Below, piece after piece: positions 36,630 through 42,784 of a stretch of DNA of 42,784 nucleotides. The stretch's first letter is position 1. Each line of letters begins with the position of its first letter. Source of the stretch: Nocardioides mangrovicus (lineage in GTDB: Bacteria; Actinomycetota; Actinomycetes; Propionibacteriales; Nocardioidaceae); assembly GCF_003674065.1 (NCBI RefSeq), contig NZ_RDBE01000009.1, positions 1 to 42,784 of the forward strand. Direction: 5' to 3'. The position numbers and the translations under genes were made by a program. The notes beneath the pieces are model-generated. The model worked only from the letters and a program-made list of their open reading frames with translations, did not search any database and was not told the origin of the DNA.

Positions 36630-37538
36630 TCAGGCACCCACGGAACGGTTCAACGATGACGGGGAGACGCCGAACTGACGTTGGAAGGCACGACGAAAGG
36701 TGTCGGCGTCGTTGAAGCCACTCAACGCCGCCGCGCGCCCGACGTGTTCGCCTGCAACAAGCAGTCGGCGCGCCGCCTCCAGGCGCCGGCGGCGGATGAA
36801 GGCGGCCGGGGAGTCGCCGCTCTGGGCGAAGATCTTCTGGAGGAGGCGCAACGAGACATGGTGGGCGCGTGCGACGGACTCGGGATGCAGGAGGGGGTCG
36901 CCGAGGTGCTGGTCGATGAAGCCGCGAACCGTGAGCGCCAGCACGTGCGAGTCGAGGGCGGGAGCCACCTGGGTGGACCCGGCGACCACAGCGGTCAGCA
37001 GGCTCACCAGCGCGTCGGCGACAGCCGGCTCCTGGAGTTCATGGTCTCCGCTGTGCCCGGGCATCGTGCATTCCGCGAGCGTCATGAGTGCGCGCAGCGC
37101 TCCGCCGCCGGGGAGGGGGCGTCCAGTGAGATTGGTCAGCGCGCGGGTGCCCACCGGGATAGACCGGCGTGGGACCTGCAGGACGATCTCGCTCATCTCG
37201 CCTGGGAATACCAGGGTGTAGGGCGACGCAGCGTCGTACAAAGCGGCCGAACCGGCCTTCAACGTGGCCTCTCGATCGTGCTGCAGAACGGCGCCCGTGC
37301 CTGAGCGATGCAGCGAGACCAACAGGTCGTCACGCGGGTGCTGAGCGATCAGGCGGTCACTGCGAAAGACCTCGGACGCCCCACTCTGCACCCGGGTGAG
37401 CGACACCTCGGGACTGAGGACGCGCTGTTGCAGGCTCGCGCTGAAGCGCGGCGAAGCCGAGCGGACCCGGAGCGGGACGAAGGCGGAGCTGCACGCCTCG
37501 GCCCACCCGGACACAGATGTGACCTCGACCTGGGACAC
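36630..37538 (-). CDS. AraC/XylS-family regulator of the aldoxime-nitrile genes
   Basis: A 302-residue regulator. The N-terminal half has the AraC-binding-like domain 2 pattern (AFVPLRVRSASPRFSASLQ, DDLLVSLHRSGTGAVLQHDREA, SAALYDAASPYTLVFPGEMSEIVL). The C-terminal 100 residues have two helix-turn-helix motifs: HPESVARAHHVSLRLLQKIFAQSGDSPAAFIRRRRLEAAR, then GFNDADTFRRAFQRQFGVSPS. The start GTG 37536-37538 leaves 191 bases to the nitrilase. AraC-type activators such as NitR of Rhodococcus rhodochrous J1 govern nitrilase expression, so this is the probable activator of the divergent nit-oxd operon. The ligand is presumably an aldoxime or nitrile. Confidence 0.9.
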   Translation of the reverse strand: MSQVEVTSVSGWAEACSSAFVPLRVRSASPRFSASLQQRVLSPEVSLTRVQSGASEVFRSDRLIAQHPRDDLLVSLHRSGTGAVLQHDREATLKAGSAALYDAASPYTLVFPGEMSEIVLQVPRRSIPVGTRALTNLTGRPLPGGGALRALMTLAECTMPGHSGDHELQEPAVADALVSLLTAVVAGSTQVAPALDSHVLALTVRGFIDQHLGDPLLHPESVARAHHVSLRLLQKIFAQSGDSPAAFIRRRRLEAARRLLVAGEHVGRAAALSGFNDADTFRRAFQRQFGVSPSSLNRSVGA

Positions 37539-37612
37539 CCCTCGGATGCTAGGTCGTCACCCGGGCAGTGAGAAGGAGTTCCGCTGTCCCCGCCGGTCAA
37601 GCGGGTCATCCG

Positions 37613-37648
37613 TGCGCGAATCGTCGGACGGATTGCGCGAAACGCCGG
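37613..37648 (+). promoter_or_regulatory. Direct repeats with 21-bp period, probable AraC-type activator site
   Basis: TGCGCGAATCGTCGG (37613-37627) and TGCGCGAAACGCCGG (37634-37648) match at 13 of 15 positions and start exactly 21 bases apart, two helical turns. AraC/XylS activators bind such same-face direct repeats just upstream of, or overlapping, the -35. A TAGGGT hexamer (37671-37676) lies 22 bases after the second repeat and is a possible -10. Confidence 0.6.
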
Positions 37649-37729
37649 GTCTGTGCGAGTCAGCCCTTCCTAGGGTCCTGCACCACAGGAATTGCTGACG
37701 AGGCCGACGACACCGAGAACAGGAACGAC

Positions 37730-38758
37730 ATGGCTGATTACACGAAGAGGTTCCGCGCTGCGGCCGTCCAGGCCGAGTCGGTGTGGAACGACGTCGCCGG
37801 AGGCGTCGACAAGCTGATCGACTATGCGACTCAGGCCAAGGAGAACGGCGCGGAGATCGTGGCGTTCCCGGAGACCTGGATCCCCGGGTACCCGTGGTTC
37901 CTCTGGCTGGACTCGGTCGCCTGGCAGAGCCAGTTCCTGGTGCCGTACGCCGCAAACTCGCTGGAGGTGGGAGACGAGAACTGGCAGCGGATCGAGAAGG
38001 CTGCTGCGCAGATCGGCATCACGATCAGCTTCGGCTTCAGTGAGCGCGAGGGTGGTTCGCTCTACATGGCGCAGGCCGTGGTCGACAGCTCCGGGGACAC
38101 GGTTCTCACGCGGCGCAAGCTGAAGCCGACCCATGTCGAGCGGACCCAGTTCGGCGAGGGAGACGGCTCCGACATCACCGTCGTCGACACCCCTGTCGGT
38201 CGCGTCGGTGCACTCAACTGCTGGGAACACCTGCAACCGCTCACGAAGTACGCGCTCTTCGCCCAGGACGAGCAGCTGCACGTCGCGGCGTGGCCCTCCT
38301 TCTCGATCTTCGAGGGCGCCGCTTTCGCGCTCGGCCCGGAGGTCAACACCGGCGCCTCGCGGCAGTACGCCGTCGAGGGCCAGACGTTCGTCCTCGCCCC
38401 CTGCGGAGTCATCGGCGCGGCGGCCCACGGCGCTTTCGCCGACACCGAGCTGAAGCGGCAGCTTCTCGGTCTCGGCGGCGGCTTCGCCCGCATCTACGGG
38501 CCCGACGGTCGCGACCTCGCCGAGCCGCTGGCGCCCACCGACGAAGGCATCCTGTACGCCGACATCGACTACGCGGTGATCCTGGCCGCCAAGAACGCCG
38601 CTGACCCGGTGGGTCACTACTCGCGCCCGGACGTCTTCACCTTGCACCTCCAGGCCGACGGGCGCCTCCCGAAGGTGTCGCCGACACGACCGAAGGCCAC
38701 CGCTGAGGTGCAGTCGCCACCCGAGCCGGAGCCGGGCCCCGAGCCGGTCGCGCTCTGA
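37730..38758 (+). CDS. nit: Nitrilase
   Basis: A 342-residue carbon-nitrogen hydrolase that converts nitriles directly to carboxylic acids and ammonia. The catalytic triad is Glu48 (AFPETWIPGYPWFLWL), Lys130 (LTRRKLKPTHVERTQFG) and Cys164 (GALNCWEHLQPLTKYAL), one residue from the R. rhodochrous J1 numbering (48, 131, 165). These motifs separate true nitrilases from amidases. The C-terminal 30 residues are Pro/Glu-rich (PPEPEPGPEPVAL), dispensable-looking. ATG 37730 follows AGGA. The aldoxime dehydratase gene starts 12 bases downstream, so the nitrile is probably made on the spot. This pairing is known from Bacillus sp. OxB-1. Confidence 0.95.
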   Translation: MADYTKRFRAAAVQAESVWNDVAGGVDKLIDYATQAKENGAEIVAFPETWIPGYPWFLWLDSVAWQSQFLVPYAANSLEVGDENWQRIEKAAAQIGITISFGFSEREGGSLYMAQAVVDSSGDTVLTRRKLKPTHVERTQFGEGDGSDITVVDTPVGRVGALNCWEHLQPLTKYALFAQDEQLHVAAWPSFSIFEGAAFALGPEVNTGASRQYAVEGQTFVLAPCGVIGAAAHGAFADTELKRQLLGLGGGFARIYGPDGRDLAEPLAPTDEGILYADIDYAVILAAKNAADPVGHYSRPDVFTLHLQADGRLPKVSPTRPKATAEVQSPPEPEPGPEPVAL

Positions 38759-38770
38759 AGGGAGCGGGCC

Positions 38771-39826
38771 ATGACCACCTCGTCGCCGTCGCTGGAGCCC
38801 TCGATCGCGCCGCACCTGTTGCGAGCCAGCCGGACGCCCAAGCACGAACCGGGCTCCTACCTTCCGGCGTACCCGGCGTTCTCTGCACGCTTCGGAGAAG
38901 ACGTCACATCCCTGGTGATGGCCTACTTCGGAGTGCAGGCGCGCGATACCGACAGCCCGGTCCTCGCCGAGTCGTCGGCACACGTCCGGGCCCAGTTCGC
39001 CGAGACGGACGGACCCGCGTCGTGGGACCGCGCCGCCTACGTCGACGCCGAGGGCTTCACGACCGTCATCAGCATCGCCTACTGGTCCGACCCGGATGCC
39101 TTCGACCGCTGGTACGACGTCAAGGGCGTCTCGTGGACGGACGCCGCGCGCGTGACTGATGGTGTCGGGCACTTCCTCGAACTGGTGCGGCCGTCGGTGG
39201 AGCGGTTCGAGACCGTCTTCTCGGCTGCCGACCGGGACGAGGGACTCGCCGGCGCGAAGTCCGGGCTGAGCGGCATGATCGAGGAGCACGCCTACTGGGG
39301 ATCGATGCGCGACCGGCTGCCGTTGAGCCAGACCGACCCGCTGTATCCCTCCGGCTCGCCTCGCCTCGTCACGGACGGACCGGTCCGAACGGTGGTCCTC
39401 CACGAGAACGCCTGCCTCATCCGGTCCGGCCAGGACATCACCGACACCGGCGACGTCGAGAGACGGGCCTACCTCGGCGACGTCGAACCGTCGCTGCGGG
39501 CCGGCATGGAGTTCCTGCGTGACGAAGGCGGCGAGATCGGCTGCTACGACAACCGCTACATGCGGATCCTGGACGAAGAGGACCAGCCGACCGATCGCAC
39601 CTTCGGTCTGAGCTGGTGGCGTGACATCAGCGCCCTGGAGGACTGGGCTGCTTCACACCCGACCCACGTCGAGATCTTCGGCGTGGCGATGAGACATCTC
39701 TCCAGCTTCGGACCGGAGACTCGACTCCGGCTCTACCACGAGGTCACCGTGCCCGCCGCCACCGAGCAGCGCTTCGTCTACGCCGGCTGCCACGACGCCA
39801 CCGGTCTGCTACGCGCAGTCCTGTAG
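38771..39826 (+). CDS. oxd: Heme-containing aldoxime dehydratase
   Basis: A 351-residue enzyme that dehydrates aldoximes to nitriles. Ser219 (HENACLIRSGQD) and His299 (SHPTHVEIFG) fall at the numbers reported for the heme-distal Ser and proximal His of OxdRE; the distal catalytic His is probably His323 in RLYHEVTVPAA. YLPAYPAFSARFG, EHAYWGSMRDRLPLSQTD and GCYDNRYMR are other family motifs. The whole length is intact. The ATG follows GAAGGGAG. It is the second gene of the operon. Most characterised members accept aryl- or alkyl-aldoximes; the natural substrate here is not predictable from sequence. Confidence 0.95.
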   Translation: MTTSSPSLEPSIAPHLLRASRTPKHEPGSYLPAYPAFSARFGEDVTSLVMAYFGVQARDTDSPVLAESSAHVRAQFAETDGPASWDRAAYVDAEGFTTVISIAYWSDPDAFDRWYDVKGVSWTDAARVTDGVGHFLELVRPSVERFETVFSAADRDEGLAGAKSGLSGMIEEHAYWGSMRDRLPLSQTDPLYPSGSPRLVTDGPVRTVVLHENACLIRSGQDITDTGDVERRAYLGDVEPSLRAGMEFLRDEGGEIGCYDNRYMRILDEEDQPTDRTFGLSWWRDISALEDWAASHPTHVEIFGVAMRHLSSFGPETRLRLYHEVTVPAATEQRFVYAGCHDATGLLRAVL

Positions 39827-40021: not shown

Positions 40022-41068
40022 TCAAGACCTGCGAGAACGCCTGGAGTCGCGTCGCAGCGCCTGCTCGACGCACCCCGCGAAGAGGTCGTCGAGGCCGATG
40101 CCGGCCGCGGCGGCCATCACCGCGACGACGCTGGTGCGAGCGAAGGAGCAGTAGAGGCCGGCTTCGAGGAACCACGGGCGGCCCTCGGGGTCGATGCGGA
40201 AGTCGAACAGGCTGTAGTCGCGGCAGCCCAGCGCCCGGTGCGCGGTCCTGGCGGCGCGCCACACGGCCGCGGTGACGGCGTCGGACGGGTCGGGCGGCAC
40301 GATCCAGGCGTGCTCGGCGTCCTTGGCCACCAGGGTCAGCCGGCCGTCGCGGCGCGCCAGCTTGTCGGCCCGGTCGCGCACCGGCTTGGTCGCGGGGTCG
40401 ACGGCGTACTCCTCCAGCGGGAGGCACAGCAGCTCGCCGTCGCGCTCGAGCACGCCGCAGCGGACCTCGCGGCCGAGCTCGATGTAGCGCTCGACCAGCA
40501 CCTGGTCGCTGTGCTCGGCGGCGCCGGCCAGCGCGGCGTCGAGCTCCTCGCGGCGACGCACCAGCATCACGCCGTCGGAGTTGTCGGCGTCGACCGGTTT
40601 CACGACCACCGGTGGGGTCAGGGTCGGTGGCCGGCCCGGGGTGAGCAGCTCGCCGGCGGGCACCCGGACGCCGGCGGCCGCGACCAGCGCACGCGCCCAC
40701 GCCTTGTCGGCCCCGGCGGCCATGGTCTGCGGCGTGTTGCCGACGTAGGGGAGCCCGAGCAGCTCCAGCATCGCCCGGTAGAGGGTCATGCCGGGGCGAC
40801 AGAACATCTGCGGCACGGCGACGTCGACCTCGAGGCCGGCGATCCTGGCCATCGCCTCCGCGGGCGACAGCGGGTCGGCGGCGGCGATGCCGGCCGGGTC
40901 GAGGGCGGCCGGGAAGCGCCAGCTGCCGTCGGGGCTGACGTAGCCGACGTGGTGCTCGTAGGCGGTGGCGTCCAGGGCGGCCAGGCAGTCGGCGGCGTAG
41001 AGGACCGACAGCTCGGCCAGCTGCTCGGTCTCGGCCGAGCCGACGAGGTGGAGGAGGCGCAGGGGCAC
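40022..41068 (-). CDS. mysD: MysD: D-Ala-D-Ala-ligase-like mycosporine-like amino acid ligase
   Basis: A 348-residue ATP-grasp ligase that joins a second amino acid (usually Ser, Thr or Gly) to mycosporine-glycine, giving shinorine or porphyra-334. The N-terminus LRLLHLVGSAETEQLAELS and YAADCLAAL with PDGSWRFPAALD are characteristic of cyanobacterial MysD. Further: PQMFCRPGMTLYRAMLELLG and LPYVGNTPQTMA; VVVKPVDADNSDGVMLVR, IELGREVRCGVLERDGEL and LPLEEYAVDP, and the metal/phosphate end FDFRIDPEGRPWFLEAG. The start GTG 41066-41068 is 12 bases after the mysC stop, so the genes form one operon. The last about 15 residues are Arg/Ser-rich. Confidence 0.93.
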   Translation of the reverse strand: MPLRLLHLVGSAETEQLAELSVLYAADCLAALDATAYEHHVGYVSPDGSWRFPAALDPAGIAAADPLSPAEAMARIAGLEVDVAVPQMFCRPGMTLYRAMLELLGLPYVGNTPQTMAAGADKAWARALVAAAGVRVPAGELLTPGRPPTLTPPVVVKPVDADNSDGVMLVRRREELDAALAGAAEHSDQVLVERYIELGREVRCGVLERDGELLCLPLEEYAVDPATKPVRDRADKLARRDGRLTLVAKDAEHAWIVPPDPSDAVTAAVWRAARTAHRALGCRDYSLFDFRIDPEGRPWFLEAGLYCSFARTSVVAVMAAAAGIGLDDLFAGCVEQALRRDSRRSRRS

Positions 41069-41080
41069 GGTCGAGCGCCC

Positions 41081-42403
41081 TCAGTCGCCGGCCGGCTCGA
41101 CGAGCTTGCCGATGTTGAAGTCGATCTTCACCCAGTCCCGGCCCGCGACCAGGTTCTGCAGCAGCAGCGCGGGGATCTGCAGGTGGTGGAGCATCAAGAA
41201 GGGCAGCGGGTCGCGCGGGTCGAAGACCGCGTCGACCCCCTCGCGGACGGTGCGCCAGCGCTCGCGCCAGCTGCCCGGAGCCCGCAGCAGGCGCCAGGCC
41301 TCGTGGTAGGCCCAGTACGTCGGTCGGCTCGCCACCGTGGGCACCACCGGCTCCTCGCGCCGCCCGAGGTAGGCCTCGGCGAGGTCGGGGTGGTCGTAGA
41401 ACATCGTGATCGCCGAGTGGGTGCGGGGGTTGCACTCGATGGGCAGCACCCGCCCGTCCGGGGTCTGCATCACGTCGAAGCTGATCTGCCCGGTCAGGCC
41501 CAGCGGCTCGACGAGGCCGCGCACCCAGGCCAGGATCTCCGGCTTGTCGACCATCGCGTAGTTGACCTGGAAGGCCGAGGAGGGGCAGCAGGCCCACACC
41601 TGGATGCGTCCCTCCACCACCGTGCTGTGCGTGCAGTACTCCACGCCCTCGACCAGGTGCTGCATCACCCACGGCGTCTCGGCGGTGATCGGCTTGGACC
41701 GTGCGAAGGCCGCCGTGGCCTCCGGGGTGGGCCGGGGCAGGGGGGTGAGGTCGAGCCGGTTGACGGGGTCGTAGGCGATGCTCTTGAGGACGTAGGGCGG
41801 GTCGGCCGAGGCGAAGTCGAACGCCGCGACCTGCTCCGGAGAGGTCATCCGGTGGGCGTCGGGCACCGACAGCCCCAGCCCTGCTGCCAGTGCGGCCAGG
41901 GCCTCCTTGTCGTCCAGCGTCTTGATCGTCTCGGCGTCGGCGTGGATCACCCGGCAGTGCGCCTCGAGCAGCGGGGCCGCGGCCGCGTCGTGGTAGCTGG
42001 CGACCGGGCTGCACACCGGCACGTAGACGTCGACCGACTCCTGGCGCACGACGTCGAGCAGCGCCTCGGCGTAACCGGGATCCTGCGGCCGGGGCACCGT
42101 GCGGAACACATCGACGCAGCGGGAGAAGCGGTGCCCGGTCCAGCGGTACTTCTCCTGCTCGACGAGGACCACGCGGTGACCGGCCCGGTGGAAGGCCCGG
42201 GCCAGGGTCAGCGCCTTGGTCATCTTGCCGCCGCTGATCAGGATCGTGAGGCGCTCCCCTTCGGGGCTGGGCTGGGGGTCGCGGCCACCGAGAAGCAGGG
42301 CGAGGGACGTCAGCGCGAGGTTGGCGGGCATCGCGAGCTGCAGCAGGGCCAGGGCGCCGATGGTCCGTGCCGCGCGCGGGACGGCTGCCGAGGTCCGGCT
42401 CAC
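41081..42403 (-). CDS. mysC: MysC: ATP-grasp ligase forming mycosporine-glycine
   Basis: A 440-residue ATP-grasp enzyme that attaches glycine to 4-deoxygadusol, the second-stage reaction of mycosporine-like amino acid synthesis. A hydrophobic N-terminus (TIGALALLQLAMPANLALTS) is followed by LTILISGGKMTKALTLARAF and HRAGHRVVLVEQEKYRWTGH, YVLKSIAYDPVNRLDLTPLP, EYCTHSTVVEGRIQVWACC, PSSAFQVNYAMVDKPEILA and the C-terminal DPLPFLMLHHLQIPALLLQN with WVKIDFNIGKLVEPAGD. These long blocks are nearly invariant in cyanobacterial MysC, so the call is firm. GTG 42401-42403 overlaps the dioxygenase stop (GTGA). Confidence 0.95.
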   Translation of the reverse strand: MSRTSAAVPRAARTIGALALLQLAMPANLALTSLALLLGGRDPQPSPEGERLTILISGGKMTKALTLARAFHRAGHRVVLVEQEKYRWTGHRFSRCVDVFRTVPRPQDPGYAEALLDVVRQESVDVYVPVCSPVASYHDAAAAPLLEAHCRVIHADAETIKTLDDKEALAALAAGLGLSVPDAHRMTSPEQVAAFDFASADPPYVLKSIAYDPVNRLDLTPLPRPTPEATAAFARSKPITAETPWVMQHLVEGVEYCTHSTVVEGRIQVWACCPSSAFQVNYAMVDKPEILAWVRGLVEPLGLTGQISFDVMQTPDGRVLPIECNPRTHSAITMFYDHPDLAEAYLGRREEPVVPTVASRPTYWAYHEAWRLLRAPGSWRERWRTVREGVDAVFDPRDPLPFLMLHHLQIPALLLQNLVAGRDWVKIDFNIGKLVEPAGD

Positions 42404-42784
42404 CGGGGCCCGTAGCCGTCGACCATGCCGCGGTGCATCACGCGGTCGCCCACCACCCCGGAGTGGTCGGCCTTGTGCAGCACGCAGCCGTTGTCCCACA
42501 CGACGACGTCGCCGACCTCCCACTGGTGTCGCAGGGTGGTGGCGTCGTGGGTGGTGGAGTGCTCGTAGAGCCGCTCGACGAGCTCGCGCGAGTCGGGCTC
42601 GGAGAGGCCGGAGACCTCGACGCACCGCTGCGGCGTGGAGAGGTACAGCGCAACCCGGCCGGTGACCGGGTGGGGCCGCAGCACCGGGTGCCAGGCCTCG
42701 GTCTGTTGGGTCGCGCCCGGCTCCACGCCGGTGACCACGTGCCGGATCTCGCGGCCGGCCACCTGCTCGCGCAGCTCGTCGGGG
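42400..42784 (-). CDS. TauD/TfdA-family Fe(II)/2-oxoglutarate dioxygenase (C-terminal part, cut by window edge)
   Basis: The visible 127 residues are the C-terminal part of a TauD-type dioxygenase. HPVLRPHPVTGRVALYLST is the usual core strand pair, and VWDNGCVLHKADHS followed by RVMHRGMVDGYGPR holds the third iron ligand (His in CVLHKAD) and the Arg that binds the 2-oxoglutarate carboxylate (RVMHRG). The HxD pair lies beyond the right edge. Its TGA overlaps the mysC GTG, so the two are translated together. In known MAA clusters the dioxygenase is MysH, of the phytanoyl-CoA hydroxylase family; a TauD-type partner is different, so the reaction (oxidation, decarboxylation or hydroxylation of the MAA) is open. 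Confidence 0.88.
   Translation of the reverse strand, partial: PDELREQVAGREIRHVVTGVEPGATQQTEAWHPVLRPHPVTGRVALYLSTPQRCVEVSGLSEPDSRELVERLYEHSTTHDATTLRHQWEVGDVVVWDNGCVLHKADHSGVVGDRVMHRGMVDGYGPR

Follow-up and report, generated by a model that had tools for sequence, protein, structure and literature searches.

What does a TauD-type oxygenase do when it stands among the genes for a mycosporine-like amino acid (MAA), an ultraviolet (UV) sunscreen, in an actinobacterium? The question is raised by the end of a 42,784-nucleotide stretch of Nocardioides mangrovicus DNA (the window: bases 1-42784 of contig NZ_RDBE01000009.1, labelled C18 here and 163,041 bases long, in a 4.1 Mb genome), where an initial annotation had recognised mysD, mysC and part of a TauD-type gene, and had suggested an independently evolved tailoring step. 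The window's 3' edge is the start of a run of 28 N (contig 42785-42812) that lies inside tauD, and past it we found mysA, mysB, a HAD gene and the other half of the oxygenase, with its HxD motif. Together these genes form a minus-strand six-gene operon with the transcription order HAD-mysA-mysB-tauD-mysC-mysD, cut by the window at the assembly gap, and it is an MAA operon of the HAD/TauD type already published for actinobacteria. As the best overall explanation we favor, with reasonable though not full confidence, that in such operons TauD is a palythine-forming analogue of MysH and that the HAD protein is non-hydrolytic.

The genes were assigned as follows, all on the minus strand. Furthest upstream are the HAD gene (contig 45818-45153, stop included; Pfam HAD_2), mysA of the dehydroquinate synthase family (contig 45156-43939, stop included; Pfam DHQ_synthase and DHQS_C), the O-methyltransferase gene mysB (contig 43942-43136, stop included; Pfam Methyltransf_3) and tauD (contig 43139-42400, with the 28-N gap inside). 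Within the window follow mysC (41081..42403), for the ATP-grasp enzyme that would add glycine to 4-deoxygadusol, and mysD (40022..41068; Pfam Dala_Dala_lig_C), for a D-Ala-D-Ala-ligase-like ATP-grasp enzyme that would add the second amino acid. MysC gave no match in the Pfam profile search and passed the cut-off of NCBIfam NF005315; it is 55-60% identical to MysC of the ten cyanobacterial loci among the 80 loci compared below, and the mysD protein is 53% identical to one of Nostoc sp. HK-01 whose gene adjoins mysABC-like genes, so that both genes are what they had first been taken for. Successive genes overlap as GTGA (HAD/mysA), GTGA (mysA/mysB), ATGA (mysB/tauD) and GTGA (tauD/mysC), and mysC and mysD are 12 bases apart. 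The TGA of tauD does overlap the GTG start of mysC, as first described, and since successive genes overlap alike we regard this as a trait of the entire operon, not of tauD alone. The locus thus holds the gene set that defines an MAA biosynthetic cluster (mysA, mysB and mysC with mysD or mysE), all four compared with related MAA loci by tblastn, and the HAD_2 and TauD Pfam matches inside the cluster that define its HAD/TauD type.

Clusters of this kind are in print. In the parts covered of the GATOR-GC study of 2025 (PMC11888242), clusters of Actinomycetota combine, like the window's, a cyclase, an O-methyltransferase, an ATP-grasp protein, a D-Ala-D-Ala ligase, HAD and TauD, and the HAD and TauD/TfdA genes are described as conserved in actinobacterial MAA clusters; a 2023 study (PMC10510106) names, in the parts covered, MysI, a TauD/TfdA MAA enzyme of Nostoc sp. 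UHCC 0926. In view of these two reports it is not new for an MAA cluster to contain a TauD, and the window's cluster is one more case of the published HAD/TauD type, so that the tailoring step suggested by the initial annotation holds in outline and its newness does not. The HAD gene, lying beyond the window, was outside that annotation's view.

Read from the two pieces flanking the gap, the oxygenase has the family match, the HxD...H iron site and the C-terminal arginine of a TauD/TfdA Fe(II)/2-oxoglutarate (2OG) enzyme. Its C-terminal part (42400..42784, minus strand; PF02668 positions 142-266, E 6e-22) carries the second iron histidine and the 2-oxoglutarate arginine (W-D-N...H and M-H-R), and the N-terminal piece past the gap (contig 42813-43139, 109 residues; PF02668 positions 5-110, E 1e-11) carries H-V-D, the iron motif that the initial annotation had suggested looking for. 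The place of the gap is taken by 84 bases in four orthologues of the same family, so 28 N is not the real gap length, and owing to this gap alignments and trees were made without the TauD of the window. Of the 75 TauD rows near mysC that were counted without it, 73 retain the first histidine and the aspartate, 73 the arginine and all of them the second histidine; the rows of L050 and L106 are visibly decayed or strongly diverged and miss the HxD region, and HAD and mysA-D remain at both loci. With these two, 19 near copies among 78 MAA TauDs and 14 of 45 outsiders dropped, a quick tree in which several outsider branches are long placed the 59 MAA TauDs on one side of one branch from 31 other TauDs (SH-aLRT 99), and by this tree the TauDs of MAA clusters form a single, separate clade, as the initial annotation had proposed to test.

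MysH itself belongs to the phytanoyl-CoA hydroxylase (PhyH) family, PF05721, whereas the window's oxygenase is a PF02668 protein. A search of the window's genome with the PF05721 profile gave 0 matches, in line with the supposed absence of MysH, and we reject a MysH elsewhere in this genome. PhyH genes are present in six other genomes, off the contigs with MAA genes in four of them (G455, G456, G457, G958) and far off where the contig is common, at ~118 kb from a HAD-TauD pair in G900 and ~2.2 Mb from mysC in G019.

Could tauD be a bystander that merely abuts mysC in this one genome? Actinobacteria commonly have TauD-family genes, and the slot between mysB and mysC is one of several: related clusters also have tauD after mysD, ahead of HAD or on the opposite strand, so the proposed tie of TauD to mysC in particular did not survive the comparison. 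(In Rhodococcoides fascians a DUF1275 membrane protein follows tauD, L056:12947-13831.) The distribution of the gene speaks otherwise. MysC relatives were found in 467 GTDB stretches, of which the best 80 loci were kept, and 69 of these were counted as actinobacterial, including L065 and L094, which are titled Rhodococcus and auto-labelled Cyanobacteriota. A further locus, L052, was left out of both the actinobacterial and the cyanobacterial counts; its contig, labelled Melainabacteria, has 72% G+C and an actinobacterial-type MAA cluster whose TauD is nested among actinobacteria, and is probably misplaced. TauD is intact in 65/69 actinobacterial loci, which puts the mysC-TauD arrangement beyond chance: 61 have HAD and an intact TauD, four have TauD on a contig that ends before HAD (L043, L054, L057, L074), two have HAD without TauD (L087, L093) and two have HAD with a TauD remnant (L050, L106). 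With one MAA-linked clade, this frequency and 4-base overlaps on both sides of tauD, we consider the bystander reading ruled out, its remaining probability being negligible. None of the three outcomes that the initial annotation had set against itself (no mysA or mysB, no HxD, a phylogeny making TauD a bystander) occurred.

Because the 80 loci are the nearest relatives only, we also searched a phylum-wide sample of 396 genomes. At E 1e-60 or better, MysC is found in seven, the window's included, and these seven and no others have the MAA-type HAD (bit scores from 285 upwards, the next being 160). Six of the seven carry TauD in the stretch examined, and in the seventh, G019, the 14 kb of L025 hold no TauD. 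Among the 69 actinobacterial loci above, 65 have a contig that extends upstream of mysA, and HAD is present in every one of them.

In the pathway that we propose, MysA would cyclise sedoheptulose 7-phosphate, MysB would methylate to give 4-deoxygadusol, and MysC would attach glycine and MysD a second amino acid to yield a shinorine-type product. TauD would then hydroxylate the N-linked glycine, an N-carboxymethyl group, at its alpha-carbon, and the resulting hemiaminal would break down to glyoxylate and a palythine-type MAA, TauD acting like MysH from another family. For MysH, a reaction of this sort is proposed in the parts covered of PMC10510106. The reactions are carried over from the named pathways; the genes, their order and overlaps, the iron site, the clade and the loss of motif I in the HAD protein (below) were read from the sequences. 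Gene content and order, the frequency of intact TauD, the iron site, the single clade, the absence of PF05721 and a profile match to ScoE support the palythine-forming reading. ScoE, a TauD-related enzyme, is by name the oxygenase of an N-carboxymethyl amine; its profile also matches the MAA TauD (E 5e-20; NCBIfam 2e-19), and the N-linked glycine of MAAs would, by analogy, be an N-carboxymethyl group of the kind for which ScoE is named. The product of ScoE is an isonitrile.

Among published systems, MysH resembles the proposed role in being an Fe/2OG oxygenase by which shinorine-type MAAs are converted to palythines, according to the parts covered of PMC10510106 and PMC11378024, the former of which puts forward two or more origins of the palythine structure. 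MysI, compared here by description only and from the same partial coverage, shares with the window's TauD its family, a place in MAA biosynthesis, proposed palythine-type products and independence from MysH; it differs in lying with mysF and mysE, whereas the neighbours of the window's tauD are mysB and mysC, and in being proposed to act on the C3 glycine. An AMP-binding motif, sought for the comparison with MysI, was found in 0/25 cyanobacterial TauD loci (~1.5 kb flank each), and the Nostoc edaphicum match sits among sulfur-metabolism genes.

Several points weigh against the palythine-forming reading. Homology does not tell the substrate, as the closest solved enzymes are AAD-1, RdpA, PlaO1 and TauD, from all of which ScoE is clearly set apart as the more distant relative; the parts covered of PMC10510106 propose that the TauD-type MysI acts on the C3 glycine, not at C1; TauD is dispensable, since it is absent or decayed in 4/69 actinobacterial loci; and the window's own tauD is interrupted by the assembly gap, so that its intactness is unreadable. 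A rival reading is another MAA tailoring by TauD, such as ring or side-chain hydroxylation or an attack on the C3 amino acid as proposed for MysI (PMC10510106, same parts). The TauD family is chemically versatile, and no solved enzyme lies near the clade: the predicted structure of a relative (pLDDT 93.5) has the TauD fold, with AAD-1, RdpA, PlaO1 and TauD as the nearest solved, and the best identity is 29-35%. Set against such other tailoring is an unpublished 2018 meeting abstract cited in the parts covered of PMC11888242, in which a Rhodococcus fascians HAD/TauD operon was expressed to give shinorine, palythine and palythine-serine, products that fit the loss of the glycine side chain. We hold another tailoring reaction to be unlikely, roughly a one-in-five prospect, and keep palythine formation as the preferred role of TauD.

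The HAD protein offers a sharper departure from its annotation. We gathered 76 HADs from MAA loci (70 from GTDB, five from family loci and the window's own, with one duplicate as L023 and L046 are the same organism), and in all 76 both motif I aspartates are replaced, the motif reading G-S-I in 74 and G-S-L in two, followed by S (70) or G (6). By comparison, the non-MAA homologues at the next 20 HAD places of the phylum sample read DxDG(T/V) in 19/19 covering motif I; the match of the twentieth (L132) stops short of it and was dropped. In a database of 5.8 billion proteins the best 120 of 2186 relatives (E 1e-30) also read GSI (one extra domain match on P0121 falls outside motif I, and P0121 itself begins GSIST); the loss is seen in these best 120, more distant relatives lying outside this count, which tempers the generality of the HAD part of our explanation. 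Between 46 MAA and 19 non-MAA HADs the columns switched are D7->G, D9->I, E16->S, R17->E, H19->Q, A110->V and S173->N, and those common to both are F23, N24, F27, W36, Y41, G49, G50, R53, H71, K74, R90, G92, K147, P148, E171, D172, G176 and A180. Motifs II-IV are kept, with T111, K147, E171 and D172 invariant in 46/46. A tree that included the motif columns put the GSI proteins on one side of one branch (49 vs 19 rows, support 100).

The fold, a Rossmannoid core with a cap, is that of CbbY-type HAD phosphatases, without their motif I DxD. CbbY phosphatases are the nearest solved structures to the HAD by sequence (E 2e-53) and, for the predicted structure of a relative (pLDDT 96.0), by fold (TM 0.88, 39% identity). 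CbbY, a xylulose-1,5-bisphosphate phosphatase (PDB 4uar/4uat; PMC10212915, in the parts covered), shares K147, E171, D172 and cap-region residues with the MAA HADs; CbbY-type homologues keep DxDG where the MAA HADs have GS(I/L). Judged by these residues, the MAA HAD appears to be a CbbY-like sugar phosphatase lacking the nucleophile and the acid/base and keeping the rest of the pocket. We did not find this loss in the published literature searched, a search on HAD-superfamily pseudoenzymes and nucleophiles returning none; the parts covered of PMC11888242 call the HAD role unvalidated and leave the missing motif I unmentioned. Of the 70 GTDB loci that have HAD and mysA, 67 carry HAD on the mysA strand, close before mysA by match ends. 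As a separate observation, two loci (L109:10155-12063 and L111:10809-12680) have HAD between mysA and mysB and a mysA only 39-40% identical to the window's, perhaps another type of cyclase.

HAD and TauD also occur in a few cyanobacteria. Among the 10 cyanobacterial loci kept, three (L072, L083, L084) have both genes, adjacent, and L096 (Pseudanabaena) has HAD alone, its genome giving no TauD match at 1e-10. These four are metagenome-assembled by title, and actinobacterial contamination is unlikely because their G+C is 41-50% and they occupy a separate cyanobacterial branch in the trees. Further examples came from the family of Calothrix NIES-4105, where TauD scores 403-404 bits in two of 162 genomes, G900 and G958 (the next match has 149), and immediately follows a GSIG-type HAD in both. 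These are orphan pairs in Nostocaceae (L212:8875-10346 and L185:1177-2646): no mysA-D gene lies within ~9 kb on either side of the pair in G900, the contig with the pair in G958 is only 3.4 kb, and mysABC lies ~138 kb off in G900 and, in G958, on a different contig, in both cases with no mysD in the stretch examined. Their distance from mysABC indicates that HAD and TauD are a separable pair. The three clusters and two orphan pairs contradict the statement, in the parts covered of PMC11888242, that HAD and TauD are absent from Cyanobacteriota. The trait is nonetheless rare in cyanobacteria, and against the pseudo-phosphatase reading or its generality stand three cyanobacterial MAA loci (L064, L097, L107) that lack HAD although their contigs extend 7 kb or more on that side, and a 386-genome cyanobacterial sample in which the MAA-type HAD is confined to the centre genome; the contigs of L075, L080 and L102 end too soon to judge.

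What, then, might the HAD protein do? An emptied motif I in a kept pocket suggests binding without hydrolysis, and what the MAA HAD most likely binds, without hydrolysing it, is a sugar phosphate or a partner within the pathway. The substrate of MysA is sedoheptulose 7-phosphate, which for that reason is a candidate, if speculative, ligand. More specifically, we tentatively propose, at somewhat less than even probability, that these HADs are decommissioned CbbY-type phosphatases of single origin that serve the pathway as a conserved, non-hydrolytic partner, for instance by binding sedoheptulose 7-phosphate for use by MysA, and that with TauD they make up a separable module found also in Nostocaceae distant from mysABC. 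Alternatively, the protein may be an enzyme that uses a different nucleophile or a different chemistry and that may work together with TauD on the TauD product (e.g., the hemiaminal or glyoxylate). Ser8, beside the lost aspartate, is invariant, and the adjacency of HAD and TauD in the three cyanobacterial clusters and both orphan pairs would suit such a partnership; yet HAD persists without intact TauD in L025, L087, L093 and L096 and beside the remnants of L050 and L106, and no search made here turned up a known HAD mechanism that does without the aspartate of motif I. We rate this alternative at about one chance in three.

Beside the operon, past the window end, a gene for a MerR-DICT regulator (contig 45883-46752, plus strand) points away from the HAD gene. 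L110 has a 41% relative in the same orientation, and one source names relatives light-induced regulators; a putative light-sensing role would rest on these names, and a literature search on the DICT domain, MerR and light returned none. We rejected this gene as a constant part of the cluster, as it is divergent before HAD in the window's genome and G433. Over 91 loci the DICT profile found only one other gene, an EAL-DICT gene directly after tauD in Mycolicibacterium bacteremicum (L053:13065-14417). Other MerR-type genes near MAA clusters are L034:13717-14829, whose weak, below-cut-off B12-binding match is reminiscent of CarH-type light regulators, and L068:4330-5586 (profile match only). On the other side of the operon, an AraC-type regulator-like gene (36630-37538, minus strand, assigned by appearance), a nitrilase-family gene (within 37568-38758; Pfam CN_hydrolase) and an aldoxime dehydratase gene (38771-39826; Pfam Dehydratase_hem) make window 36630-39826 read as a putative aldoxime-nitrile pathway.

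The conserved HAD gene of these sunscreen clusters is annotated as a hydrolase, and its protein is without the residues that a HAD phosphatase needs. The cyanobacterial HAD-TauD pairs give both genes a second, discontiguous setting, and a pseudo-phosphatase beside a cyclase that uses a sugar phosphate is a testable idea for how flux into sunscreens may be controlled.

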